The notes beneath the pieces are model-generated. The model saw only the letters and a list, made by a program, of their open reading frames with translations, ran no database searches and was not told the DNA's origin. Source: an uncultured Rhodobiaceae bacterium (GTDB taxonomy: Archaea; Thermoplasmatota; Poseidoniia; Poseidoniales; Poseidoniaceae). Taken from it: a stretch of 33,476 nucleotides of DNA. The DNA is taken from positions 1-33,476 of the forward strand of contig CALDQY010000136.1 in NCBI GenBank assembly GCA_937911445.1, written 5' to 3'. Below are positions 13,021-28,281 of the stretch, piece after piece; the first letter of the stretch is position 1; the number at the start of each line of letters is the position of its first letter. A program made the position numbers and the translations under genes.

Positions 13021-13430
13021 AGCATTTGTGGCCTTACCACAAAGACGCAATGGCATTGGTATTAGGTGCTTTTTTCATCTACGTTGGTATTCTTCACTTC
13101 ATTGATGTTGAATGGTTTACACCGATTGTACCTGAAGCCCTTCCGTTCAGTGCAGAATTCTGGGTCATCATCAGCGGCATACCGGAGGTCATTTGCGGGA
13201 TAGGACTCATCCTTCGGCCGACACGCGCCATTGCAGGAAAGGCCACGGTTGCCCTTCTCATCGTTCTGTATTGGGCAAATCTCAACATGTGGATCAATGA
13301 CATTCCACTGAATGGAAACACGTTCCCATTGTGGGCACACATCCTTCGTGCCCTCGCACAGCTTGGCATGATTGCCGTCGCTGCCTATCTAGGCGAGTGG
13401 ATTCGAGAAATCAAACTCAACGAGGATTAG
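13017..13430 (+). CDS. DoxX-like small membrane protein
   Basis: 137 residues with four hydrophobic segments. The sequence GAFFIYVGILHFIDVEWF near the N-terminus and the ISGIPEVICGIGLIL stretch fit the DoxX/DoxD-like four-helix membrane family, whose members have been linked to quinone-dependent oxidation or redox homeostasis in some species. No catalytic residues are defined for this group, so function is open. The start overlaps the DRG gene stop (ATGA), implying translational coupling. The stop overlaps the convergent GH57 gene stop by 4 bp. Confidence 0.7.
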   Translation: MKHLWPYHKDAMALVLGAFFIYVGILHFIDVEWFTPIVPEALPFSAEFWVIISGIPEVICGIGLILRPTRAIAGKATVALLIVLYWANLNMWINDIPLNGNTFPLWAHILRALAQLGMIAVAAYLGEWIREIKLNED

Positions 13431-16400
13431 ACCCACTTATCGTCTCCATCCTCACCGTTTCGAACACGAATGAAGGCAATGAGAAGAACAAGAACTGTAA
13501 TCAGAATTCCAATTTGAACGACGCCACTTGAAACTGCGGAAGATGTTTGTTCACCATCGTCATCATCGGTCGAGTCGTTTGGATTCGTTGGGTTTGGATT
13601 GGTGTTTTCTGCATCCACGTCGATGGTAACCGAGATGCTGCTTTGATTGAGATTGCCTGAAGCATCAGCACTCTCGACCAATAACTCATACACACCATTA
13701 GCGTAAGCCTCAGTGATGAATTCGTGGTTCTTTTTCGTTGCAAATGCATCCTCGTGAATTGTTGTACCAGCGATTGAAACAATCTCTGTAGCGCTTTCTG
13801 AGGTGTACCACGTAACTCGGATTCGACCATCGTCGAGGACTTCGGCATCCAAATTCAACAGTTCAGGAGCTGTTTCATCAACGACGCTGCTGGTGTTGAA
13901 GTACAGAATCACATCCTCCGTTCCTTCAGCTCGGACAAACACCCAGTAGGAGGTTCCAACTTCGAGTTCAGTCAGTGTCACTGCATGATCGGTTCCTGCA
14001 AGTGTTTCGAGAACATTTGTCGTTCCATCAACAGGCTGTTGGTCTGCAAGGGCATATTGAATGGATGTAGCCGCAGAGACCGTTGTTGACCACGTCAATA
14101 CGGCGCTTGAAGAGGTGACCGTTTCAACAGACGCTCCGAAAATCTGCTGGGGAATTTCAGGCATTTCAAATCCGGTTAATGTGGCATACACATGACCATC
14201 GACATCGTACGAAGCAAGCATCTGTTCTTGTCCATCTCCATCCAAAATCATATCAATGATGTTCGGATCGTAATCGATTCCATCGTCTGCTGCAGGATTT
14301 GAACCACCGCCAAGTGTCCAGGTCGATGGTGTTGCATCAACGTCTCTCCACTTTCCTGTTCCAAACCCGTCTTGACTACCGATCACAACGATGTATCGAT
14401 AGTTCGGAATGTCATCGCCAATCACATCCTTACTCACAGTGAAGGTGATGGTTTTGGCATCAATGTCACCTGAGACATCGATTCCGCGAGATGATGTACT
14501 TCCCGTTTCAGATTGGACAGCAAAGACGGCCCCTGGTTCTCCAGTTCCGCTGATGGCGACTTCCCATGCCCATGCATCATCAATTCGAGCATTTGCCCCA
14601 TCGAGCATCTCTGTTGAACCATAACTCGTGTCTCCTTGATCGACATAGATTTGTACGATCTGATGGCTGAATCCGTTGCTCAAGCCCCAGATATCGGTCA
14701 TCTCGTCCATTTCAAGAATGAATTGAGCGTTCCACGCACTTTGGCGAATGGTCAGTTTCCTTGCATCCCACAGACCACCATTGTTTGGTGTTGCGAAATC
14801 ACTTGCAAGTGGATAGATGTAATCGCCATCACCGGTTTCGTCTCCGATGGCATCATCCAGCTCAAGCAAGGTTACCCACTCTTCAAGGTCAGGAAGAACC
14901 ATTTCAGCCGGTGCTGGAGGTGCCATCTCCTTGTCTTCGCCATCACCATAGGCGAGCGAATCAGCGAGAGCTGCGACGACCTTGATTCGTGTCGAATAAC
15001 GTGGTGCAAGCCCAATCTCGGACCAAGGGATAACAAACTCATAGACATCCTGAACGGCGCAGCCACCGAGTCCAGAACTTCCGCTCAAGACCCATTGTTC
15101 CTGATCACCAGTCTTGCCCTTTGCTGTGAAGAGGTTCCATTTGGCACGCCCATCGTCTCGCAAGGTTTCAAAGTCAAAGGCGACCATGTATTTGGATGGG
15201 AAACTGAGAATTTGATTGCCGTAGTAGGTACGGAAATTCGTTTCAGCCTCGTTGAAATTGACTGCATTGGGTTGCATAAAGTAGAGGGCTAAATCAGGGG
15301 ATTTGCCATTAAGTGACATGTTCTCGAGTTCGGAAATGGTGGTTGCATCCACTCGGACAAACACGTTTGAAGCGTCATAGCCGACGTAGAACTCCTCAAT
15401 GTTGAACGGTGCTCCTTCGACCGGTGCGTCGTAACGAGCAGCACCGTCCCATTCACCAGGTAACGCAACGCCGTCAACCATCGGTTCAATGATTGAGGAG
15501 GCTGCCGGTGACGGAACGGCTGGATTGGTCCACAAGTCTTGCAAGTACGGAGGGAGATCGAGATTGACCGCTCGATAAATGTTGGACAGATGGACCTTGA
15601 AAAGAACGTCCCAGTTCTCGTCGTAGCCACTGTCTTGATCGAGACCATACCACCAGAACCAATCGCTGCCTTCAGCGATGTACAACGATTCCCACGCAGC
15701 TTCGAGACCGGGGTCGTTTGGATTGTCTGCTTCGAAAGCAACAAGTTGCTGACGTGCTTCTACAAGACGTTGCCAGGCAAGGGATTCTTCTTCTTCACCT
15801 GCCCAAGTACGAAGCGTTCCGTCAATCCATGAACCCGTTCCAATGGTTTGAATTTCTGGCAATGTTGGTTCGGTTTCGAGGAATTCAGATGGTGTCGTAG
15901 TTACGATGGTTGGATGCGTTGCCAACCGACCGTACCATTCTGCCATGAAAGGACGGGCGTTGTCTTGGTGTTGGAACTCGGACATGAACATCCAATTCTC
16001 CCCATCGAGGGCGACGGTAAGTAGGTGTTCGGACGGGTCTTCGCCCGCGTCGAGCAGTTGTTGTCGAATGTTGTCAAGGTAGGCAATGAAATCAGAAACT
16101 GCTGCCTCTGGCGTCATTGTTCCATATTGGAAAGCAATACGATCCGAGATGACACGATCACGGAAAATGACAGCTACTTCACCACCATCAGCACCCGTAA
16201 CTTTCCACGGGGTTGCCAAATTGGTAACATCCTCTACATCGATGAAGTCGCCGTTTTGATTGGTCGATTGCTTGAGAATTTCCTCATCGGTAACCATCCA
16301 TTCGATACCGACGTCCGTTACTGGTTGAACCATGGCTGGAGAAACAGCTTCCTCGCTGGGCCACATTCCAGTAGGACGGAAGCCAAGTTCGTCTTCGAAC

Positions 16401-17896
16401 AAATCCATCCCTGTGATGAGATGATTTTGAACGTCCTCGGGCCATGCTTCTTTGTTGACGCGAATACCGTCCTCCATTGTCCAGCCTTCCATCATGAGCA
16501 AAGGCATAATCGGGTGGTAATATGGTGTAGTCGTAAGTTCGACTTGTCCGTTCGCAGCAAGTTCACTGTACATCGGCAAGACGTTGCCCATGTGGGCATG
16601 TTGGGCATCAAGGACGTAGTTCAAATCGCTCAATTCGTAATTCCCACTTTGCATGAATAAATCGATGAGACCTTGGTCACGATGACTCGAGTTGTAGGAC
16701 CCGAGGACATAATCTGGTGAGAATTGGTAAAGATACCAAAGGACTTGAAGATCGAGGAAATCTTGCGGTGGAAGCAGTTCATCGTCCATAATGGTTGCCG
16801 GTTTGAGATTGTGGAGTGTGTTGTCGTAGAGTTCCTTGTAGCGTGCACTCGAAGGGTGAAGCCAGCCGAGTTTCGGGTCATCCTCGGAGACGTTGTATAT
16901 CCAACCACTGTTCCAAAACGATTGGAATTGCATGGTGTGGAGTTCAAGATCTGTTGCGTTTGGATAGCCACCTGTTGCCCATGACCTCTTGGCGATGTCT
17001 GTATGTACATCCAATGTCTCTTGCTCGTGGTAATCGACAAGTTGTTCGATGAACGAGGGCACAAGGTTGTACGTTACCTTCGTTCCAGTATCAGCAAGAA
17101 TGCCTGGTGAATCGACGTATTCTGTCATGGCGTGGACACGGACCCAAGGCATCTCATACATCCCCGTTAGTTTGTTCTTGTAGTACGGTTGATGTTGGTG
17201 GAAAACAATAGCAAGATTGAGTGCATCATCGACTTTGCCGACTGCTGCAGGTTGAATAACAGGTAATTGGTTTGGTGACGTTGCGTTGTTGACATTCTCG
17301 ATGTGCCAAGCATGGGTGAACGTTTCAGCACCATTGTTGCTTGCTGGATTTTGCCCTGGGAACGAAGCCCAAACATTTCCTTCGTCTTGCCATTGTGCAT
17401 ACATCATAACATCCAGCGACGTAGGTGAACCAATCTCAGCCCATGGAATAGCAAGTTCGGTCACCATATTTCCTTCCCAACCAGCAAAGAGATCAACCAC
17501 GTAGGTACTGTCAACCCATGCGCTTCCATCGTAGGAAACAAGACGGAAGTAGGTGTCGTCCTCGAGAACAAATCCATAATTCGCTGCAAAAGGAAGCGTA
17601 TGTGAAAAGCCCCAGTCCTTGCTCAAGACCGATCCATCCGTTGAAGTATTAAGGTAAACGAAGAGGTCTGCTCCTTCCGAGGTAGATTTCCAATCGGTTC
17701 CATCCCATCCAATGTAGAGATTGGATGCATCCCATGTCATGTGCAGGTCGATGTTGCTGCTTGACATCAACTCGTCAGCGCTCCAATCGATCAAATCACC
17801 ATCCACTGTGATGGTAGAAGGTGTCTGTGAAGTGGCAAAACCACTCAAGGTTGAAGTTAAGAAAAGGAGCGACAATACCACAGCACTTCTTCGCAT
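13427..17896 (-). CDS. Giant exported, membrane-anchored GH57 alpha-glucan hydrolase (amylopullulanase-like)
   Basis: 1489 residues from the ATG at 17896 (the track's TTG at 17935 is rejected). Order: Sec signal peptide (MRRSAVVLSLLFLTSTLSGF); CBM9/DOMON-like beta-sandwich (about 25-200); GH57 catalytic region (about 225-800); two further beta-sandwich domains like the glucodextranase/DOMON modules of archaeal amylopullulanases (about 830-1210); one or two Fn3-like domains (about 1230-1430); an Asn/Pro/Thr/Asp-rich linker; a C-terminal membrane helix and charged tail. GH57 conserved regions are visible: HQHQP (region I, from residue 233), GMWPSEEAV with the likely nucleophile Glu515, and ALDGENW with the likely acid/base Asp631. 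Expected substrates are alpha-1,4 and possibly alpha-1,6 glucans such as starch, glycogen or pullulan. It diverges from malQ across 46 bp. Confidence 0.88.
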   Translation of the reverse strand: MRRSAVVLSLLFLTSTLSGFATSQTPSTITVDGDLIDWSADELMSSSNIDLHMTWDASNLYIGWDGTDWKSTSEGADLFVYLNTSTDGSVLSKDWGFSHTLPFAANYGFVLEDDTYFRLVSYDGSAWVDSTYVVDLFAGWEGNMVTELAIPWAEIGSPTSLDVMMYAQWQDEGNVWASFPGQNPASNNGAETFTHAWHIENVNNATSPNQLPVIQPAAVGKVDDALNLAIVFHQHQPYYKNKLTGMYEMPWVRVHAMTEYVDSPGILADTGTKVTYNLVPSFIEQLVDYHEQETLDVHTDIAKRSWATGGYPNATDLELHTMQFQSFWNSGWIYNVSEDDPKLGWLHPSSARYKELYDNTLHNLKPATIMDDELLPPQDFLDLQVLWYLYQFSPDYVLGSYNSSHRDQGLIDLFMQSGNYELSDLNYVLDAQHAHMGNVLPMYSELAANGQVELTTTPYYHPIMPLLMMEGWTMEDGIRVNKEAWPEDVQNHLITGMDLFEDELGFRPTGMWPSEEAVSPAMVQPVTDVGIEWMVTDEEILKQSTNQNGDFIDVEDVTNLATPWKVTGADGGEVAVIFRDRVISDRIAFQYGTMTPEAAVSDFIAYLDNIRQQLLDAGEDPSEHLLTVALDGENWMFMSEFQHQDNARPFMAEWYGRLATHPTIVTTTPSEFLETEPTLPEIQTIGTGSWIDGTLRTWAGEEEESLAWQRLVEARQQLVAFEADNPNDPGLEAAWESLYIAEGSDWFWWYGLDQDSGYDENWDVLFKVHLSNIYRAVNLDLPPYLQDLWTNPAVPSPAASSIIEPMVDGVALPGEWDGAARYDAPVEGAPFNIEEFYVGYDASNVFVRVDATTISELENMSLNGKSPDLALYFMQPNAVNFNEAETNFRTYYGNQILSFPSKYMVAFDFETLRDDGRAKWNLFTAKGKTGDQEQWVLSGSSGLGGCAVQDVYEFVIPWSEIGLAPRYSTRIKVVAALADSLAYGDGEDKEMAPPAPAEMVLPDLEEWVTLLELDDAIGDETGDGDYIYPLASDFATPNNGGLWDARKLTIRQSAWNAQFILEMDEMTDIWGLSNGFSHQIVQIYVDQGDTSYGSTEMLDGANARIDDAWAWEVAISGTGEPGAVFAVQSETGSTSSRGIDVSGDIDAKTITFTVSKDVIGDDIPNYRYIVVIGSQDGFGTGKWRDVDATPSTWTLGGGSNPAADDGIDYDPNIIDMILDGDGQEQMLASYDVDGHVYATLTGFEMPEIPQQIFGASVETVTSSSAVLTWSTTVSAATSIQYALADQQPVDGTTNVLETLAGTDHAVTLTELEVGTSYWVFVRAEGTEDVILYFNTSSVVDETAPELLNLDAEVLDDGRIRVTWYTSESATEIVSIAGTTIHEDAFATKKNHEFITEAYANGVYELLVESADASGNLNQSSISVTIDVDAENTNPNPTNPNDSTDDDDGEQTSSAVSSGVVQIGILITVLVLLIAFIRVRNGEDGDDKWV

Positions 17897-17942
17897 GGCT
17901 TGACCGTAGATATGATAATTTGAAAGACTTTGCAATGTTTTG
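17897..17942. promoter_or_regulatory. 46-bp shared divergent promoter (GH57 / malQ)
   Basis: The whole intergenic region is 46 bp and has one AT-rich core, ATGATAATTT at 17912-17921. Its centre is about 26 nt before the malQ ATG on the plus strand and about 21 nt before the GH57 ATG on the minus strand. In archaea a TATA box lies about 26 nt before the transcription start, so both transcripts should be leaderless or nearly so, and both pre-initiation complexes would compete for the same DNA. This is inferred from spacing. Confidence 0.5.
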
Positions 17943-19196
17943 ATGGAGACAGGTCACCAAAGTGGAATTCTCTGTCACTTGACATCACTGCCATCGAAGA
18001 AGTTGTCCGAAGGGCATCGATTTGTTGACTGGCTGAAAGAAAACGGATTCTCATTTTGGCAAATGTTGCCCCTCACACCGCCTGACAAATACCGCTCGCC
18101 ATATGCTTCACCATCGGCTTTTGCAGGATGGAGTGACCTGGCCGACTCGGAACAGAACTTTCCAATGGAGCAGGATGCATATTGGTTGAAGGATTGGGCT
18201 TTGTTTTGTGCAATCAAAGAGAATCAAGGTGGTAAACCTTGGTATGCATGGCCGGAGCCTCTCAAAAACCGAAATCCTGAGGCGTTGGCAGAGTTTGACC
18301 CACTGCTCAAACCATACATCCTTCAGCAACAAGCGTTCGCTGCAGAATGGGATGCATTACGAACACATGCGAACAACAACAGCATCAGAATGATTGGCGA
18401 CGTGCCAATTTTCATCGCTCACGACTCAGCTGACGTCTGGGCGCATCGGGAATTGTTCCAACTTGATGAGGACGGTTACCCCACCTACATCGCCGGTGTT
18501 CCGCCGGACTACTTCAGCGAAACTGGACAGGTTTGGGAAACAGTCCTGTACAACTGGGAGGCGCATGAACAAGACAACTGGAGATGGTGGGAAGAACGTA
18601 TGAAGCGAATGTTTCGCATGTATGACATCGTACGCATCGATCATTTCCGTGGATTTCATTCCAGTTGGGCCATACCCTATCCAGAAGAGGTTGCAACAAA
18701 CGGCCATTGGCAAAAGGGTCCTGGAGACAAATTGTTCGATCATCTGATGACTCTCGTTGCCTCACCTGATCAAATCATTGCAGAAGATTTGGGCATTATT
18801 CCAGAAGAAGTCATCGAATTCAGACGGCGACACATGCTACGTGGCATGAGTGTACTTCAATTTGGATTCTCGGATGACATCAACACCAACCCTCACCATC
18901 CGAACAACATTCGAGAAGATCAAATTGTGTACACTGGAACGCACGATAACAACACAGCAGAGGGATGGTTTGGCTCTGCCTCCGATGATGAACAGGAACA
19001 AGTTCGTTCACTTGCACTTGAAGATGAAACAACCTCGCAGACATTGATTCGCCTCGCACAATCTACGGACTCGCCAATTTCCATCATTCCTCTCCAAGAT
19101 TACCTCGGTTTAGGTGAAGATGCGAGAATGAATGTCCCCGGTCAAAAAGGTAAGAATTGGGGATGGAAATTTACTTGGCAGGATCTCATTGGGTGA
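17943..19196 (+). CDS. malQ: 4-alpha-glucanotransferase (GH77, amylomaltase)
   Basis: 417 residues from the ATG at 17943 (the track starts one codon earlier at a TTG). It is a cytosolic disproportionating enzyme that transfers alpha-1,4-glucan segments between maltodextrins and releases glucose. GH77 motifs are SGILCHLTSLPS, QMLPLTPP, SPYASPSAFAG, the nucleophile in VRIDHFRGF (Asp233), the acid/base in IIAEDLG (Glu281), the transition-state Asp in TGTHDNNT (Asp335) and IIPLQDYLGLGEDARMN. It is shorter than the usual ~500 residues: the conserved YGIGDLG segment after the first motif is missing and replaced by KKLSEGHRF. All three catalytic carboxylates remain. It is followed by the glucan phosphorylase gene in the same direction. 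Confidence 0.93.
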   Translation: METGHQSGILCHLTSLPSKKLSEGHRFVDWLKENGFSFWQMLPLTPPDKYRSPYASPSAFAGWSDLADSEQNFPMEQDAYWLKDWALFCAIKENQGGKPWYAWPEPLKNRNPEALAEFDPLLKPYILQQQAFAAEWDALRTHANNNSIRMIGDVPIFIAHDSADVWAHRELFQLDEDGYPTYIAGVPPDYFSETGQVWETVLYNWEAHEQDNWRWWEERMKRMFRMYDIVRIDHFRGFHSSWAIPYPEEVATNGHWQKGPGDKLFDHLMTLVASPDQIIAEDLGIIPEEVIEFRRRHMLRGMSVLQFGFSDDINTNPHHPNNIREDQIVYTGTHDNNTAEGWFGSASDDEQEQVRSLALEDETTSQTLIRLAQSTDSPISIIPLQDYLGLGEDARMNVPGQKGKNWGWKFTWQDLIG

Positions 19197-19241
19197 TGCA
19201 AGCAACAAAGAACTCATAACCTGATTTGACGAGCACAACCC

Positions 19242-20891
19242 ATGCCTGTGGTGGGGTATTTCACAGCAGAAATTGGACTCTGGTCGGAACTCCACACGTA
19301 CTCCGGTGGATTGGGTGTCCTCGCTGGAGACCACGTCAAATCAGCAGCAGATGCCGGCATTCCTCTTGTTGGTGTCACACTCCTCTACCACCAAGGCTAT
19401 GCACGCCAACACATTGACAGAAATGGCATCCAGACAGAAACTTTCCCAGAATTCGATCCAAGCAATCACTTGACAAAAACAGACATGACGATTACTCTAG
19501 CGCTCGATGGCCAATCACTGTCGGCTCATGTTTGGAAGGCCGACATCGTCGGACAATCAGGACACGTTGTTCCTGTATATTTCATCGACACGCATCATGA
19601 ATCAAATACTTCAGAACATCAAAGTCTCTCCTCAAGACTCTATGGAGGAGACGATGACATGCGGATTCGACAAGAATATGTCCTCGGCGTTGGTGGTGTC
19701 CAGTTGTTCGATCACCTTGATGTCGAAATGCAGGGCTTGCATTTGAATGAGGGGCACTGCACCTTTGCCATGCTCGAACTCCTGAATCGAGGATGGAGCA
19801 GAGAAGAGTTGGCAAGGCGAAGTCTGTTTACGACGCACACTCCAGTGCCCGCTGGTCACGACCGCTTTGAGTGGAGCTTGGTCGAACAGGTTGTGGGGGA
19901 CATCTTGCCAAGGGATGCACGTACATTGGTTCGGAATGCTGGCGACTCAGAAAGAGGCGCTCGATGCTCAATGTCACATCTTGCAGTTGCCCTCTCAACA
20001 TCGGTGAACGCTGTATCGAAGTTGAATGCTGATGTTGCTATGACCATGTTCGATGAACAAGTGATTCAGCCTATCACCAACGGCGTTCATCACATTACGT
20101 GGACGTCCCCGATCATGGCTTCGTACTTCGATCAACATCTGAATGGATGGAGAACGCATCCTGAATCGATTGCCAATGCCAAGACATTGCCGACAGAGGA
20201 ACTCAACCAAGCTCGAGCAACATCTCGCGCTCAGCTCCGAGACTATGTTCTCTCAACCACTGGGGTTGAACTTTCACCGGATCGATTGACGATTGGATTT
20301 GCGCGAAGGTTTGCAACGTACAAGCGTGCAAATCTCGTGTTCAAAGATTTGGACCGATTGTGTAGGATTGGGGCTGGAAAAATTCAGTTCGTCTTCTCCG
20401 GGAAGGCTCATCCGAGAGATCAGGGAGGAAAACAACTGATTCGAGACATTTTTGAGTCAGCAGAGCAAATCGCTGACGAAATTCCAGTTGCTTTCATCGA
20501 AAATTACGACATGCACACCGGTTTAATGATGACAAGTGGTGTTGATATTTGGCTCAACAATCCAATTCGTCCGATGGAAGCGTCTGGAACATCTGGAATG
20601 AAAGCAGCCATGAATGGTGTTCCGAACTGCTCCATTCTTGACGGGTGGTGGCCAGAAGCATGCATCCACGGTGTGAATGGATGGGCCATTGGCAATGCAG
20701 AAGATGACCGGGATGATGATCGTGATGCTGAGAACATCTACAAGGTGTTGGAGAACGATGTACTTCCTCTCTGGGAGGAAGATGGCGATGGTTGGTCGAA
20801 CATGATGAAGGCAAGCATTGCAGCATCAGCTGGATTCACTGGCCATCGTATGATTCAAGATTATCTTGAATTCTACAATCAATTTACTTGA
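19242..20891 (+). CDS. glgP: Alpha-glucan phosphorylase (GT35, short archaeal/bacterial type)
   Basis: A 549-residue PLP enzyme that cleaves alpha-1,4-glucans with phosphate to give glucose-1-phosphate. It belongs to the short alpha-glucan phosphorylase subfamily, which differs from classical ~800-residue glycogen phosphorylases. Motifs are TAEIGLWSELHTYSGGLGVL (8-27), HLNEGHCTF, NGVHHITW, FARRFATYKRANL and the cofactor lysine in EASGTSGMKAAMNG (Lys454). The N-terminal DUF3417-like domain carried by many members is absent. It lies 45 bp after malQ and is probably co-transcribed. Together they form the cytosolic maltodextrin pathway. No signal peptide. The 3' end overlaps the amylase gene end by 13 bp. 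Confidence 0.92.
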   Translation: MPVVGYFTAEIGLWSELHTYSGGLGVLAGDHVKSAADAGIPLVGVTLLYHQGYARQHIDRNGIQTETFPEFDPSNHLTKTDMTITLALDGQSLSAHVWKADIVGQSGHVVPVYFIDTHHESNTSEHQSLSSRLYGGDDDMRIRQEYVLGVGGVQLFDHLDVEMQGLHLNEGHCTFAMLELLNRGWSREELARRSLFTTHTPVPAGHDRFEWSLVEQVVGDILPRDARTLVRNAGDSERGARCSMSHLAVALSTSVNAVSKLNADVAMTMFDEQVIQPITNGVHHITWTSPIMASYFDQHLNGWRTHPESIANAKTLPTEELNQARATSRAQLRDYVLSTTGVELSPDRLTIGFARRFATYKRANLVFKDLDRLCRIGAGKIQFVFSGKAHPRDQGGKQLIRDIFESAEQIADEIPVAFIENYDMHTGLMMTSGVDIWLNNPIRPMEASGTSGMKAAMNGVPNCSILDGWWPEACIHGVNGWAIGNAEDDRDDDRDAENIYKVLENDVLPLWEEDGDGWSNMMKASIAASAGFTGHRMIQDYLEFYNQFT

Positions 20892-23620
20892 TCGCTCCAA
20901 TCAATTTCATCGAACTCATTCGCTTTCCCTTTACCCTTTTTTCCAGAAAAGACTAGGACAAGGGCTGCGATGACAACGACGCCAATCAACAAGGAGCGTG
21001 TCATTGTTATCGCAGATGATTTCGAGTCCGAGGTTCCTTCCGTTTCACAAGGAGCACAATCGACCACAGGACATGGTTCATCGGCTGCAACCTCGAACCC
21101 ATCTCCACAACATCCTTCACACGTTTTCATTTCACCGGGAGTGGACTGACTTCCATCCATTTCATTGTCCGGATTAGGTGATTGTGTTTCATTGTTCAAA
21201 GTCGATTCGTTTGTCGTTTCGTTCGTTTGTGTTGTCGTGTTTGTTTGATTGGTCGGACTTGGTTCCTCACAACTTGGACAACATTCTCCCTCTGCAGCAG
21301 GTATCGTGGTCCATCCTTCAGGACAAGCATCACAGAACACATCGCTGCAAGGATCGGTGTCGTACTGACAACTGCCATCATCTTCTGTTGCATTAGTATC
21401 ATAATTTGTAGCCGTGCTATCCATACAGCCGAGAATTGGTTCAGGTGGATACTCACAGGAGCCATCATCTTCTGTCGCAGATGCGTCAAAGTTTGTTGCT
21501 GTTTGATCGGTACACCCGTATACGGGAGATACGTCAACATCTGCATCAAGTTCGATGACCGTCACGGAATGTGCATCAACGGAAAGTGTTCCACTCTGCA
21601 TCAAGGAAGAACCGAAACGGACAACATCGTTGCTTGCAAATCCATTGACAGTTGTTGGCGCTCCACGGTTGAGAACAACGGACATGACCTGGTCTTCGTG
21701 CGTCATGTTGTAGACAAGGAGATTTGACATCGCCAATCTTGTGCTGTATTCACCCCGCTGTAAGGCAATCGAATTAGAGCGTAATTGACCAAGTTCAGAG
21801 ATGTTCTCAAACAATTGAGATTCCATCGGACTCCACGAACTTGCGTTTCGGTACATGTGACGATTGTCAGGGTCTGCACCTCCGTACTCCCCATATTCGT
21901 CACCGTAGTAAAGCAATGGAGCACCAGGTGTGGTCAAAAGCCACCCATAGGCTTGCAAAGCAGCATTGTACGCAGATGCATCACCAGGCTGTCCCGGAAG
22001 ACCATCCTCTGCCCATTGATTGAACGCATCGTTGGTACCAGTATCTGCTCGACTCGTCAATCGAGGAACGTCGTGACTACCCACATAAGGCACCATAATC
22101 GAACCATCGAGGTATTGATCCTGACTTCGGTTGGTCCAATAATCGAGATGCATGTAGTTCTCGTTTCCTGAAACGAACACGTTGTCAACAACAGCATGAT
22201 ACAACACGAAATCAGCTTGGCCATCCAATCCATCTGGACCCATGTATCCGTTGATTGTACCGTATTGTTCCTGGTTGTCTACGAGTGAGTGACCTGCCCA
22301 TCCCATGGCAGTCTCTCCCTTGAGGTAATAATCGGTTCCAACTGTTTCAAAGCGTTCGTTCACTTGGGCGACCAAGTTTCGAGTCGCCAAGTCTTCGACG
22401 TGTTTGACCGCATCAACCCTTAATCCATCGAGATCGTAGGTTTCCAACCACCACAATGCATCATCAATGAATTGCTCAGAGGCATCTCGAATTTTCCAAT
22501 TGACATCTGGCATATACGAGGTGAATTGGCAATCAAGCCGGTGCTCGGTCCAGTCACAATTTGCACTACCACAGATACAACCTGCATTGAACCACTCAGG
22601 ATTGTCTTCGTAGTAGGTGTGCTGCTCATGGACGTGGTTTACGACAAAGTCCATCATGACACGAATGTCATGGTCGTGGGCTGCTTCGACCAATGCATGA
22701 AGCTCCTCCGCTGTTCCTAATTTCGGTTCAATACCGCGTGGCTCGGTTGGCCAATATCCGTGGAAAGCAGAAACGTCGTGTACACCATCTGCAGCTTTAC
22801 CCGTTCCATTGGCTGCAGTATTGAATGGCGAAAGCCAAAGTGCTCCAACACCCAAGTCATCGAAATAACCAGATTCAATCATTTGCGTGACACCTGCAAA
22901 GTCACCGCCCTGCCAATCAGCCCCCTGGGCAGCACCAACCATGGGCTCATCGTTCGAGGTGTCTCCATTCACAAAACGGTCGGTCATGACCATGTAGATG
23001 AGAGCATCCTGCCAAACGAAATCAGCAGAAGGTCCTGTCCAGAATGGAACAAGTAAGTCATAGGCAGGATTTCCATCAACATCAAATCCATCGATTTTCA
23101 GAGAATGTTTCCCATCTTCCAATCCACTGACATCGTAGGTCCAAGTGCCTTGTTGGGCATCCCAAACGGCTCCGGTGATTGCAGAGGGCGTACCACTGAA
23201 GGCTGCTCCTGATGAACCAGGATGATACGAGACAACCAGAGACTGAGCAACAAGTTCAGCACTGAAGTGGGGACGTGTATGATCTCGCACACGGACTAGA
23301 GAATTCTCGATATCGCCACAATACGAACGTTCGGGATTCATTGGATCGAAGATGTATTCTCCATCAACGATGAACTTGTAACAGTACAATCCTTCCTGAA
23401 GATCGACCTCAGCGCTCCAAATACCATTTTGTTCCGTCATCGGAACTGGAACACTCCAATTCCATTCACCAACAACGGATACCTCGGTTGCAAAGCCTTT
23501 GAACGAAAACGACGTCATTGGAGATGCCGAGTGGGATGATGCGCGAACATCGTTCGACGAAAGTGGAGAGAAGAGGACGAGAATCATCATCAAAATCAAG
23601 AATCGTGCCGCGGTTTTCAT
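20879..23620 (-). CDS. Exported membrane-anchored GH13 alpha-amylase with N-terminal glycogen-binding-like domain
   Basis: 913 residues. Order: signal peptide (1-27); a CBM48/AMPK-type beta-sandwich (about 34-115, KGFATEVSVVGEWNWSVPV); a second sandwich (about 118-195); GH13 catalytic barrel (about 200-590) with region I DFVVNHVH, nucleophile Asp403 (LDGLRVDAVKH), acid/base Glu436 (YLKGETAM) and Asp517 (VGSHDVPR); an all-beta domain C (to about 690). After that come two 23-residue Cys-containing repeats, a Cys cluster, a Thr/Asn/Gln-rich stalk, another Cys cluster, a membrane helix (about 870-890) and a basic-acidic cytosolic tail. It should cut starch at the cell surface. The ATG overlaps the malK stop (ATGA), tying the enzyme to the importer operon. 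Confidence 0.93.
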   Translation of the reverse strand: MKTAARFLILMMILVLFSPLSSNDVRASSHSASPMTSFSFKGFATEVSVVGEWNWSVPVPMTEQNGIWSAEVDLQEGLYCYKFIVDGEYIFDPMNPERSYCGDIENSLVRVRDHTRPHFSAELVAQSLVVSYHPGSSGAAFSGTPSAITGAVWDAQQGTWTYDVSGLEDGKHSLKIDGFDVDGNPAYDLLVPFWTGPSADFVWQDALIYMVMTDRFVNGDTSNDEPMVGAAQGADWQGGDFAGVTQMIESGYFDDLGVGALWLSPFNTAANGTGKAADGVHDVSAFHGYWPTEPRGIEPKLGTAEELHALVEAAHDHDIRVMMDFVVNHVHEQHTYYEDNPEWFNAGCICGSANCDWTEHRLDCQFTSYMPDVNWKIRDASEQFIDDALWWLETYDLDGLRVDAVKHVEDLATRNLVAQVNERFETVGTDYYLKGETAMGWAGHSLVDNQEQYGTINGYMGPDGLDGQADFVLYHAVVDNVFVSGNENYMHLDYWTNRSQDQYLDGSIMVPYVGSHDVPRLTSRADTGTNDAFNQWAEDGLPGQPGDASAYNAALQAYGWLLTTPGAPLLYYGDEYGEYGGADPDNRHMYRNASSWSPMESQLFENISELGQLRSNSIALQRGEYSTRLAMSNLLVYNMTHEDQVMSVVLNRGAPTTVNGFASNDVVRFGSSLMQSGTLSVDAHSVTVIELDADVDVSPVYGCTDQTATNFDASATEDDGSCEYPPEPILGCMDSTATNYDTNATEDDGSCQYDTDPCSDVFCDACPEGWTTIPAAEGECCPSCEEPSPTNQTNTTTQTNETTNESTLNNETQSPNPDNEMDGSQSTPGEMKTCEGCCGDGFEVAADEPCPVVDCAPCETEGTSDSKSSAITMTRSLLIGVVVIAALVLVFSGKKGKGKANEFDEIDWSDQVN
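21362..21517 (-). repeat. Two tandem Cys/Asp repeats in the amylase stalk
   Basis: Two copies of a 23-residue unit, 29 residues apart, at residues 702-724 and 731-753 of the amylase. They share the pattern GC-x-D-x-TATN-x-D-x-x-ATEDDGSC-x-Y. The DNA copies are also clearly similar. Units of this kind recur in cell-surface proteins of marine Bacteroidetes and other marine microbes and may bind calcium, with the two cysteines forming an internal disulfide. Known occurrence is from memory and function is inferred. Confidence 0.75.
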
Positions 23621-24411
23621 TCCTGAACCTCCGATTGATGGGGTTGATTAAACAACGAATTCGCTGTGTCGACCAAATCATCGATGTGCTTGCACAAGAA
23701 CGAGCGAACAAACTCGTTCGCAGGATTATGGTAGGCATCCAGTGGTGCACAATGTTGCTGCAACTCACCTTTGTCAAGAATCGCAATTCGGTCTGCAAGC
23801 GTCATAGCTTCGATTTGATCGTGTGTGACGTAAATGGTCGTTGTTCCAAGTTCATCGTGCAAACGACGAATCTCGTTCCTCATTTGATGTCGTAATTCTG
23901 CATCGAGATTGGAAAGTGGTTCGTCCATCAACAGAACCTTTGGCCTTCGAACCAATGCACGACCAAGTGCAACTCGTTGTCGTTGGCCACCACTCAACTC
24001 CTTCGGTTTTTTATCGAGATGACCGTCAAGTTCCAGTAAATGGGCAATTTCTTTGACACGGTTCGAAATCTCCTGTGCCTCCAGTTTCTCAGTTCCCTTC
24101 ATCATCCTCAGTCCGAATGAGAGGTTGTCACGAATGGACATGTGTGGATACAGTGCGTACGATTGGAACACCATGCCAAGACCACGTGCTCCAGCAGGAA
24201 GATGATTCACCTTCATGCCGTCAATCCGGATGTCGCCTTCTGTGACGTCCTCAAGGCCTGCAAGCATCCGTAGAGTCGTTGACTTTCCACATCCAGACGG
24301 CCCGAGAAGAACCAAGAATTCCTTATCTTTGATGTCCAAGGACAAGCCCTTCACAGCTTGGAACCCATCATCGTATTGTTTGTTCACATTCTCAAATTCT
24401 ACGCTTACCAT
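23617..24411 (-). CDS. malK: Sugar ABC transporter ATPase, MalK/UgpC-like but lacking the C-terminal TOBE domain
   Basis: 264 residues from the ATG at 24411, which is preceded by GGGTGA and sits 4 nt after the malG stop; the ORF track's extra N-terminus lies inside malG. ABC elements: Walker A GPSGCGKST (37-45), signature LSGGQRQ (139-145), Walker B VLLMDEP (159-165) and switch HD in YVTHDQIEA. Sequence flavour (SYALYPHMSIRDNLSFGL) is that of the carbohydrate importer class. MalK-class ATPases are normally about 360-370 residues with an OB-fold regulatory domain. This one stops about 20 residues after the NPANEFVRSFL block, with an intact reading frame into the stop. It therefore lacks the platform used for regulation in other species. 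Confidence 0.88.
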   Translation of the reverse strand: MVSVEFENVNKQYDDGFQAVKGLSLDIKDKEFLVLLGPSGCGKSTTLRMLAGLEDVTEGDIRIDGMKVNHLPAGARGLGMVFQSYALYPHMSIRDNLSFGLRMMKGTEKLEAQEISNRVKEIAHLLELDGHLDKKPKELSGGQRQRVALGRALVRRPKVLLMDEPLSNLDAELRHQMRNEIRRLHDELGTTTIYVTHDQIEAMTLADRIAILDKGELQQHCAPLDAYHNPANEFVRSFLCKHIDDLVDTANSLFNQPHQSEVQE

Positions 24412-24415
24412 ATGC

Positions 24416-25663
24416 TCACCCTTTGACGCCACCTGCCGATAATCCATCGATCAAGAATTTCTGGAAGAAAAGGAACAACAGGGCAACCGGTAGGCTTACG
24501 AGCAAACTGGCTGCAGCAAAATCACCCCATGCTTGCCCAGTTGAGGAAATAAGCGAAGCCAATCCAACCGGAAGCGTGTACATATCGTTCGATGTGTTGA
24601 ACGTCAAAGCAAGCAAGAACTCGTTCCATGCCGCCAAGAAACTGAACAAGGCTGTCACGGCAATGGCTGGCGTCGACAAAGGTAAGACAACTTTTGTGAA
24701 CACTTGGAATTGATTGCATCCGTCGAGTGCAGCAGCCTCCTCAAGCTCTCGAGGTATGGTATCAAAGAATCCCTTCAGCATCCACACGCACAGTGGTAAG
24801 GCTGTAACACAGTAGGCCAGAATGAGACCCAAGTGTGAGTTTAGAAGTCCCAGCGTCTTCATGACCAAGAAGTATGGAACGAGAATAATAATCCCCGGGA
24901 ACATTTGCACCAACAGGAACGAGAACATCGAAACATCGCGCCCAGTGAACTTGTAGCGACTGAAAGCATAACCAGCAGGTATAGCAATGAACAGACCGAG
25001 AAGGGCTGTCCCAATACTCACGATGAGCGAATTTGTTAACCATGTCCAAAACGAATCTCCGTTGAGAATTTTTGAGAAGTGTTCCGTCGTAAATGAATCC
25101 CCAATCTGACCACCGAGAGCATTGCCTTCAGAGAAGGCAATATCGATGATCCAAATCAACGGAATCACTGTGATAGCAACGAAATGAAGCAACGTGATGT
25201 GGGTTGAAGTTTCATGGAATTTCTTGGACAAAGCCGCATTTCGCATCAAACCGTATTCAATCGCTGAATCGGACAGTTTCCTCGATGTCCAAACCGTCAC
25301 AGGTCGTCCTGATAACCAGAACAGCGTCAAGCCGGATGGAATCAAGCTCCAACAGTGAATCCAAATGTTAAACACCGTCGATTCAGTTCGCAAGAGGCGG
25401 TATACGGCAATTCCGAGAAGAATGGCACTCAAGACCAGACTGAGATTTCTGCGAACATGATCACTAACATTTGGAAGCGATGCACGAAGAGCTGCGAATA
25501 GAAGACACGATACGATACCCAGGAGAAGCAAGTCCGATTCAGCCCGGAGATAATCGACAGTCAGAAGGAGCACATTGACGAGGAAGGCTGCGACAAGCCA
25601 TCGTCTCAACATCACAATTTCCATTGGCACATACCACCAACGCATGTCTGTCGAATCCGTCAT
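24416..25663 (-). CDS. malG: Sugar ABC permease MalG with an extra N-terminal membrane domain
   Basis: 415 residues from the ATG at 25663, which overlaps the upstream stop (ATGA); the ORF track's 76-residue extension lies within the malE-malF gene. The C-terminal about 265 residues are a normal MalG-type permease with its EAA loop (LEEAAALDGCNQFQVFTKVV, from about 307) that docks on MalK. The first about 150 residues are not typical of MalG: they hold about four hydrophobic helices (for example RRWLVAAFLVNVLLLTVDYL and LSLVLSAILLGIAVYRLL) and a cytosolic basic linker before the first canonical helix. It should pair with the permease half of the fusion protein. Specificity for maltodextrin is inferred from the amylase in the operon. 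Confidence 0.87.
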   Translation of the reverse strand: MTDSTDMRWWYVPMEIVMLRRWLVAAFLVNVLLLTVDYLRAESDLLLLGIVSCLLFAALRASLPNVSDHVRRNLSLVLSAILLGIAVYRLLRTESTVFNIWIHCWSLIPSGLTLFWLSGRPVTVWTSRKLSDSAIEYGLMRNAALSKKFHETSTHITLLHFVAITVIPLIWIIDIAFSEGNALGGQIGDSFTTEHFSKILNGDSFWTWLTNSLIVSIGTALLGLFIAIPAGYAFSRYKFTGRDVSMFSFLLVQMFPGIIILVPYFLVMKTLGLLNSHLGLILAYCVTALPLCVWMLKGFFDTIPRELEEAAALDGCNQFQVFTKVVLPLSTPAIAVTALFSFLAAWNEFLLALTFNTSNDMYTLPVGLASLISSTGQAWGDFAAASLLVSLPVALLFLFFQKFLIDGLSAGGVKG

Positions 25664-28281
25664 GCTACCGCCTCCGTCGCATTGGTTTGTTTCATGTATC
25701 GCCAAGAGAATGCAAACAGCATCAGGAAGATGATGACCGACCACGCGGCAGCAACACCATAAGCACCTTCCCGGAAGGCAACATCGTAAACATACGTGAT
25801 CAAAATGTCCGTTTGACCGGGTTGGCCAAAGTACAGATTCGGTCCTCCATCGGTCATCAGATAAATCACGTTGAACATATTGAACGTCCATATAAATCCG
25901 AGAAGTGTAAGCGGAATCAATGCACTACGCAAGTTGGGTAACGTGAGATGTCGGAACGCCGCCCACCCAACAACCCCATCCAATTCAGCTGCTTCGTACA
26001 TATCCTTTGGAATGGATTGCAATGCACCGCTTATGGACATCATCATAAATGGAACACCCAGCCAAATATTGACGAGAATAACAATAATTTGTGCTCCAGT
26101 AGGATCTGAAAGGAAGTCAATGTTGGTACCGAGCAAGTCGTTCACAAATCCATCTGGCTGGAACATACCTCTCCAAACAAGGACGGAGATGTACGACGGA
26201 ACAGCCCAAGGTAGTAGCAAGAGTGTTCGATATGCAACCTTTCCGTGAATACGACTTCGGTGGAGCATATTGGCAAGGAACAGCCCAATTCCGATGTGAG
26301 CCGAAACGTTCACAACAGTCCAAACCAGTGTGAACAACGTGACGCGGAGGAATCCTTCAGCGGAAAAGACCTCAACGAAATTGTCGAGGCCAATAAACGA
26401 TTGATCACCAAGTTGCGTTTGATTCGCATCGGTAAAGGCAAGCCAAAAACCGTACAACACAGGATAGAAGGTCAAAATCGCCAAGGCCAGGAGCGCAGGT
26501 GCGACATAGAAATGAGCGAGTTTGGATTTTGTACGACCAAGCTTTGAATCGTTCCATTTCGCAAAACTTAGCAAAGCAATCAAAGAAAGGACAATTGCTC
26601 CAAGAGCGAAAAGCACTGGAGACGTATCGCCTGCTTCGGGGCGCTCATCAGCAACACTGGTGCGCTGAGTGGTCGAGAAAATCAGGACTTCATCGCCGAA
26701 CACCTCGATAAGATGGTCTTGCTCAGGCACCATTCCCGTCAAGGTACATTGGATGGTTTTTGTCGAAGCAAATGCGATTCTTTGTTGACCCAATTGGAGC
26801 AATTCGTTGACTCCGTCCGTGCATGAATCGTAATCCAATAGCGAACCATTGCTTCCCAACCCAACACGAATTTCAGTGTGCAGAGTGCCATCAACAAAGA
26901 CATCATACGATGTAGCATTCGTTGTTTCAAATTCGATTGTTATTGTGCGATAACCTTCTGCAAGCGGAAACGGATCTGCTCGGGATATGGATTCAATCTG
27001 TTCCTCAAGTTGCTGGTTTGCACCAGAAAGAGCTTCGTCTGTCGAGGCGATGCCTGAATAGGCTTGCTCAAAGGCGGTGGACAACGGATCATAGACAAGA
27101 GACATTGCTCTCGTTGTCGGAGCTGGTGTACCCTCTTTTGTTTGCTCAAGGAATCCTGCAAGCACTGCATCATCGTTGATGTCCGAATCCGATTCGAGCG
27201 CAACATGCGTCGGCATCGTGTAGGTTTCAACAGCGAATTCTTTCTGAACATCCTCCGATGAAAGCCATAGTGCGAGTTCAGTGGCAGCGACCTTGTTGGC
27301 ACTTTGCTTGCTAACAGTCCAACCTTTGTAGGTAACGAGTGGAGACATCCTTTCACCCGTACTTTCAACCGTGGGTAGCAGGGTTTGACCAATGTTTAAC
27401 CGGCTTGCTTCGTAGGTGGCCCAGTTCCATGGTCCATCAAAAATCATCGCAGCTTTCGAAGAGATGAATTGATTCTTCATGCCCTCAATTTGGGTGCCTG
27501 TTGCTACAACCCCATGTTCCAACTCAAGATCGAGCATCCAGCGCATCGCATCACTCGAACCGTTGGAATCAAGCGTTGGTTCACCGTTTTCATCAAACAA
27601 GGAACCACCAAATCCTTCCTGTATTGGGAACCACCAATAGGCAGTCTTGATAGGGATGGCTAAGCCTTGGACATCTTGGTAGGTGAGCAGTTCTGCTGCA
27701 TTGAGTAAATCTTGCTGAGTCCATGTTTCATCAGGATAAGCAAGGCCTTGCGCATCGAAGAGTGCTTTGTTGAAGATGAGGGAGAGACAATCCTGACTCG
27801 CTGGAATTCCATAAAGAGCATCTCCATAGCGCATCGCTTGCAAAGCCCTCTCTTCGAAAACAGCTCGATCTTGCGGTGTCAGGTGGGGACGTAAGTCTTC
27901 CAAGAGAGGGAATCCATCGACTCGGACTTCCCCAATCGCACCCAATTGGTCACTCGATAACCGCATCAGATCAGGTGCTTGTCCACCTTGCGCCGCTGTC
28001 ATGAACAGTTGATCTGCATTGCCAAAGGGCACCATCGTGACCTCGACCGTGACATTCGGATAAGCAGATTCAAACGATGAGACAGAATTCATGAAGACTT
28101 CTTCTTCTTTGCTTTCTGCAGCAAATGTGTGCCAGACCTCGAGAACAATCTCGCCATCAGCGTCTGTTTGTTGAGCATTTTCCTGACTACTACCAAGGCA
28201 TCCTGAAAGAAAAATCAAAGAAAAAAGCACAATGGCCAGAAGTCGCTTCCGACGGGAAGAACCTCGAGCCACTCCGTTCAT
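25660..28281 (-). CDS. Fused sugar-binding lipoprotein and permease (MalE-MalF fusion)
   Basis: 873 residues in one uninterrupted frame. Residues 1-28 are a lipoprotein signal (RRKR, then FLSGC, Cys28). Residues about 44-430 are a family 1 solute-binding protein (IVLEVWHTFAAESKEE, LPWLS-like surface residues, KAAMIFDGPWNW, VTYKGWTVSKQS). About 435-550 is a small outward beta-rich domain with two cysteines (487, 512). A membrane helix at 554-573 precedes a complete MalF-type permease (590-865) with an EAA loop (YEAAELDGVVGWAAFRHL). Binding protein and permease are normally separate. The fusion fixes one receptor per transporter and explains why no free malE exists here. The gene heads the malEF-malG-malK-amylase operon, all joined by overlaps or a 4-nt gap. 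Confidence 0.9.
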   Translation of the reverse strand: MNGVARGSSRRKRLLAIVLFSLIFLSGCLGSSQENAQQTDADGEIVLEVWHTFAAESKEEEVFMNSVSSFESAYPNVTVEVTMVPFGNADQLFMTAAQGGQAPDLMRLSSDQLGAIGEVRVDGFPLLEDLRPHLTPQDRAVFEERALQAMRYGDALYGIPASQDCLSLIFNKALFDAQGLAYPDETWTQQDLLNAAELLTYQDVQGLAIPIKTAYWWFPIQEGFGGSLFDENGEPTLDSNGSSDAMRWMLDLELEHGVVATGTQIEGMKNQFISSKAAMIFDGPWNWATYEASRLNIGQTLLPTVESTGERMSPLVTYKGWTVSKQSANKVAATELALWLSSEDVQKEFAVETYTMPTHVALESDSDINDDAVLAGFLEQTKEGTPAPTTRAMSLVYDPLSTAFEQAYSGIASTDEALSGANQQLEEQIESISRADPFPLAEGYRTITIEFETTNATSYDVFVDGTLHTEIRVGLGSNGSLLDYDSCTDGVNELLQLGQQRIAFASTKTIQCTLTGMVPEQDHLIEVFGDEVLIFSTTQRTSVADERPEAGDTSPVLFALGAIVLSLIALLSFAKWNDSKLGRTKSKLAHFYVAPALLALAILTFYPVLYGFWLAFTDANQTQLGDQSFIGLDNFVEVFSAEGFLRVTLFTLVWTVVNVSAHIGIGLFLANMLHRSRIHGKVAYRTLLLLPWAVPSYISVLVWRGMFQPDGFVNDLLGTNIDFLSDPTGAQIIVILVNIWLGVPFMMMSISGALQSIPKDMYEAAELDGVVGWAAFRHLTLPNLRSALIPLTLLGFIWTFNMFNVIYLMTDGGPNLYFGQPGQTDILITYVYDVAFREGAYGVAAAWSVIIFLMLFAFSWRYMKQTNATEAVA

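Follow-up and report, generated by a model that had tools for sequence, protein, structure and literature searches.

A conserved 46-bp spacer between divergent GH57 and malQ genes of Poseidoniales as a probable bidirectional core promoter

The spacer that separates the divergent start codons of GH57 and malQ (46 bp, 17897-17942; positions are those of the window, the whole stretch of 33,476 nucleotides analysed) is probably a compact bidirectional core promoter serving two leaderless or nearly leaderless genes, with the elements of the two directions interleaved in the clade to which the window belongs. That it is a real promoter core is decided by its conservation and not by its motif score. 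A common core for two leaderless divergent genes had been proposed in the preliminary description, and three lines of evidence support this proposal: a promoter model, the conservation of the core in two families, and the spacing of 49-50 bp known between the start sites of bidirectional archaeal promoters (47 between the start codons here).

The locus and its predicted promoter elements

The source contig belongs to a MAG of Poseidoniales (Marine Group II), and the relatives found by searches are labelled Candidatus Poseidoniaceae or Euryarchaeota. The GH57 glycoside hydrolase gene (13427-17896, minus strand, ATG complementary to 17894-17896) encodes 1489 aa with a Pfam PF03065 match (1.1e-51), a conserved, signal-peptide-like hydrophobic N-terminus and a C-terminal Glucodextran_C domain; it is a predicted secreted amylase. 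On the plus strand, malQ (17943-19196, ATG at 17943-17945, conserved in the clade) encodes a GH77 4-alpha-glucanotransferase of 417 aa (PF02446, 6.5e-125). Both ATG positions confirm the previously reported 46 bp. A GH57 start at the in-frame TTG at 17935, giving a longer ORF, was rejected, given that homologues start at the signal-peptide Met and that the invariance of the extra stretch at all codon positions counts against coding; a later malQ start was also discarded, as no conserved in-frame start codon lies ahead of the conserved G-(I/V)-L-C-H motif. Downstream of malQ there is an alpha-glucan phosphorylase gene (19242-20891, plus strand), and the 45-bp gap between them (19197-19241) contains a leaderless promoter that is predicted with a high score (9.4 bits at -37), so that the two may not form an operon. 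Further genes of the window, at 20879-28281, are those of an alpha-amylase carrying a glycogen-binding domain and of a sugar-type ABC transporter, the latter with solute-binding and permease domains fused in one ORF (25660-28281). Many relatives encode giant proteins, in open frames some 4,600 aa long, that contain the domain found near the N-terminus of GH57 at about residues 43-195 (for example G037:C31:18119-18589).

Leaderless archaeal promoters are expected to show BRE and TATA elements at a fixed offset upstream of the ATG, given the geometry of TBP and TFB. As a yardstick, 332 upstream regions, from about 720 kb of sampled contigs of the source genome and a second genome of the same genus (G007), were averaged with positions counted from the ATG, gene starts outside the GH57/malQ locus being those of a simple, crude home-made gene caller. 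A sharp signature was obtained, consisting of a BRE (S-R-A-A-R) at -36 to -32, a TATA (TT.AA) at -29 to -25 (or -24) and a C at -1; an EM motif trained without the GH57/malQ locus had its main start at -37. The spacer itself carries BRE and TATA at such offsets and no Shine-Dalgarno sequence, including before malQ. This absence, together with the offset of the motif across the genome, strongly suggests that both genes are leaderless or nearly so.

For GH57, the predicted elements are found on the minus strand in the register of the genome consensus: CAAAG at -36 to -32 (17928-17932), a putative BRE also marked by column conservation, and the near-palindromic TTTCAAA at -29 to -23 (17919-17925). 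The PWM gives 4.8 bits at start -36 and 3.4 at -37, a one-base ambiguity. Another GH57 match at -47 (TTGCAAA, 6.1 bits in the window) was discarded, as it is not conserved across the clade. For malQ, the best near match on the plus strand is CGTAG-AT-ATGATAA, starting at -39 (5.0 bits), with a predicted BRE at 17905-17909 and a predicted TATA at 17912-17918, the latter based on the PWM and on column conservation; the malQ leader would then be about 2 nt long. This register departs from the genome mode of -37, and a competing one at -31 (TGATA-AT-TTGAAAG) scores almost equally (4.9 bits) and would place the transcription start inside malQ.

The single TATA-like core formerly placed at 17912-17921 thus holds in part: the AT-rich core is there and fits malQ, but it lies about 6 nt too close for GH57, whose elements are mostly outside it. 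Instead of one box at equal distance from both genes, we find two predicted TATA/BRE sets that abut and interleave. The box at 17919-17925 is the one shared by both genes in other genera; in the window it lies at -26 from the GH57 start and only -21 from malQ, which appears to use a second TATA abutting it.

In both directions the PWM scores are ordinary (about 5 bits, around the 60th percentile of genes); each single-direction score is reached at about 6% of random places, and 1.2% of spacers shuffled by dinucleotides reach both together. Taken by itself, the motif score is therefore no more than moderately unusual.

Conservation of the spacer, the pair and the core

In the 12 calibration species of the window's clade, 30 of the 46 spacer columns are invariant, while among fourfold sites in the same species only 1 of 75 in malQ and none of 121 in GH57 are (1/196 together). 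Three blocks are invariant across 14 loci of the clade: CGTAG, followed after two free bases by ATGATAATTTGAAAG and, after a further free base, by CTTTGCA. These blocks coincide with the predicted BRE and TATA elements, and the 2-nt gap between BRE and TATA on the malQ side varies freely; the core has a predicted BRE on each side (CAAAG on that of GH57, CGTAG on that of malQ), and neither varies within the clade. Core-promoter elements can account for the conservation of the spacer, and constraint on protein coding cannot.

The conserved blocks run slightly beyond the core elements (17933-17934, and TCGC in g9; g-numbers are anonymous genus labels), as would be the case if the core served chiefly as the operator of an alpha-glucan gene regulator, lying between two overlapping promoters, and the genome does encode a TrmB-family domain. 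We regard this as improbable: the blocks match the BRE and TATA offsets, the arms flanking the core are not common to different genera, and the full core motif had no second copy outside the GH57/malQ locus when four genomes were scanned at one mismatch, which also speaks against the core as a regulon signal.

Short spacers between divergent genes are not uncommon here. Among 76 divergent pairs sampled from two genomes with the crude gene caller, some of them orthologous between the genomes, ten have spacers of at most 56 bp. A by-product of genome compaction, resembling a promoter by chance, would agree with this count and with the moderate motif scores, but it is hardly credible in view of the extreme conservation of the spacer against saturated fourfold sites and of the recurrence of pair and core across two families. 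Of the sampled pairs in which both starts score well, one more has a TATA in common. It consists of genes for a membrane protein and an ATP-grasp ligase-like protein (identified from translations by inspection only), with a 55-bp spacer and the core ATTTSAAAT, and pair and core are found in 15 genomes of the genus. This spacer (L074:2148-2202) carries an additional conserved CCAAAACGGCCGAG block, which may be a regulator site.

The comparison of the spacer in related genomes, suggested earlier as a check, found the divergent pair and the core kept. Each of the 19 genomes of the genus in which malQ was matched has the pair, and so do the sampled members of g2, g3, g5 and g9 and those of g15 and g17 in a second family; the core TGATA-nn-TTSAAAG is likewise found again in several genera and beyond the family, being weaker or altered in some g3 members. 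In g6 and g19 (L096, L155-L157) the phosphorylase gene and malQ are swapped, with the former between GH57 and malQ, and in g19 GGAG precedes the malQ ATG in two of the three loci where malQ follows glgP, unlike in the window.

In g2, g3, g5, g9 and g17 there is a single near-palindromic TATA, usually TTSAAAG, at 24-29 nt from the GH57 ATG and 27-30 nt from malQ (with one exception, where the start codon is uncertain), so that one TATA stands at canonical distance for both genes, in line by sequence with the offset of about -27 from each start expected of an archaeal BRE-TATA-BRE promoter. In g15 the malQ distance is 34-36, and a short leader would therefore be needed there. In all clades scored, the distance of the TATA centre from the GH57 ATG stays within 24-29 nt, and the malQ distance ranges from 20 to 36. 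Such a lock to the GH57 start is what one would expect if the core were the promoter of GH57 only and malQ were transcribed with a normal leader from a promoter inside GH57, where a 6.4-bit PWM match occurs 107 nt upstream of malQ. This alternative seems unlikely to us, since in the five genera mentioned the malQ distance is canonical too, mostly with a plus-strand match of 5.4-7.2 bits, since CGTAG is invariant in the window's clade where a malQ BRE is expected, and since malQ is without a Shine-Dalgarno sequence.

Within the genus, the TATA distances are 26 (GH57) and 20-21 (malQ) in the window's clade, and 25 and 27 in its sister clade, the malQ start being 6-7 nt closer to the core in the former. 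Given these sister-clade values, the shorter malQ distance looks derived. The start codons are 47 nt apart in the window and mostly 52-56 in the other genera with a shared TATA. The outer block is invariant in the window's clade and not in g9, and the malQ-side TGATA of other genera is only a partial BRE match; this clade-only invariance is consistent with a new malQ BRE.

A bidirectional promoter and its possible evolution

Warman et al. (2021) reportedly described symmetry-based bidirectional promoters of bacteria and archaea, in which, as proposed here, overlapping elements on both strands allow divergent starts from one site. BRE-TATA-BRE promoters of Pyrococcus furiosus directed in vitro transcription in either direction, and 49 bp separated their start sites (PMC6640164). 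The spacer fits this plan by analogy, with a near-symmetric TATA and BREs on both strands, start sites there being about 49-50 bp and start codons here 47 nt apart. Unlike the P. furiosus cases analysed, in which antisense RNA is driven from head-to-tail genes, conserved and functionally related coding genes lie on both sides here, and the window's clade differs further in having two abutting TATAs. Arrangements of this general kind are known, and the present one has been retained in two families of the order.

From the sequence and the overlap geometry we infer two-way transcription from the core, the TATA registers of both genes and mutual exclusion of their promoters. TBP would bind the AT-rich, partly palindromic core, and TFB would orient the complex by contacting one of the two flanking BREs, so that RNA polymerase would start either leftward at the GH57 ATG or rightward about 2 nt before the malQ ATG, the two points being separated by 45-47 bp. 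A single TATA (TTSAAAG) at standard distance would serve both starts in most relatives, whereas in the window's clade malQ would use a second TATA (ATGATAA), abutting the first, and its own BRE (CGTAG). Simultaneous occupancy of these interleaved promoters is unlikely, because the pre-initiation complexes of both directions would need the same stretch of DNA. It is conceivable, and we suggest it tentatively, that in this clade, when the malQ start codon moved, the shared TATA gave rise to two TATA/BRE sets that abut and are shifted in register, which would have left the strength of each gene free to evolve separately while the promoters stayed mutually exclusive.

The supposition that the spacer has a balance of the extracellular and the cytosolic enzyme built into it is unsupported. 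Bidirectional promoters of E. coli showed basal transcription without competition, the loss of one direction having little effect, and interference once one direction was strongly activated (PMC12825309). Such a balance is doubtful because these data suggest no necessary competition at basal levels, although they concern promoters of a bacterial RNA polymerase and not TBP and TFB. The GH57:malQ ratio would depend on relative promoter strength only, and the cytosolic branch would not be wholly tied to the core, since the phosphorylase gene has its own predicted promoter.

For Poseidoniales, an uncultured group, the analysis yields a model of the predicted leaderless promoter with BRE and TATA. 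The spacer would be a well-conserved case in which an archaeal bidirectional promoter couples two coding genes of one pathway instead of producing antisense noise, and its variants offer a natural series for testing what sets TFB direction and start position. If true, the split TATA would make visible how a shared bidirectional promoter evolves into an interleaved one.
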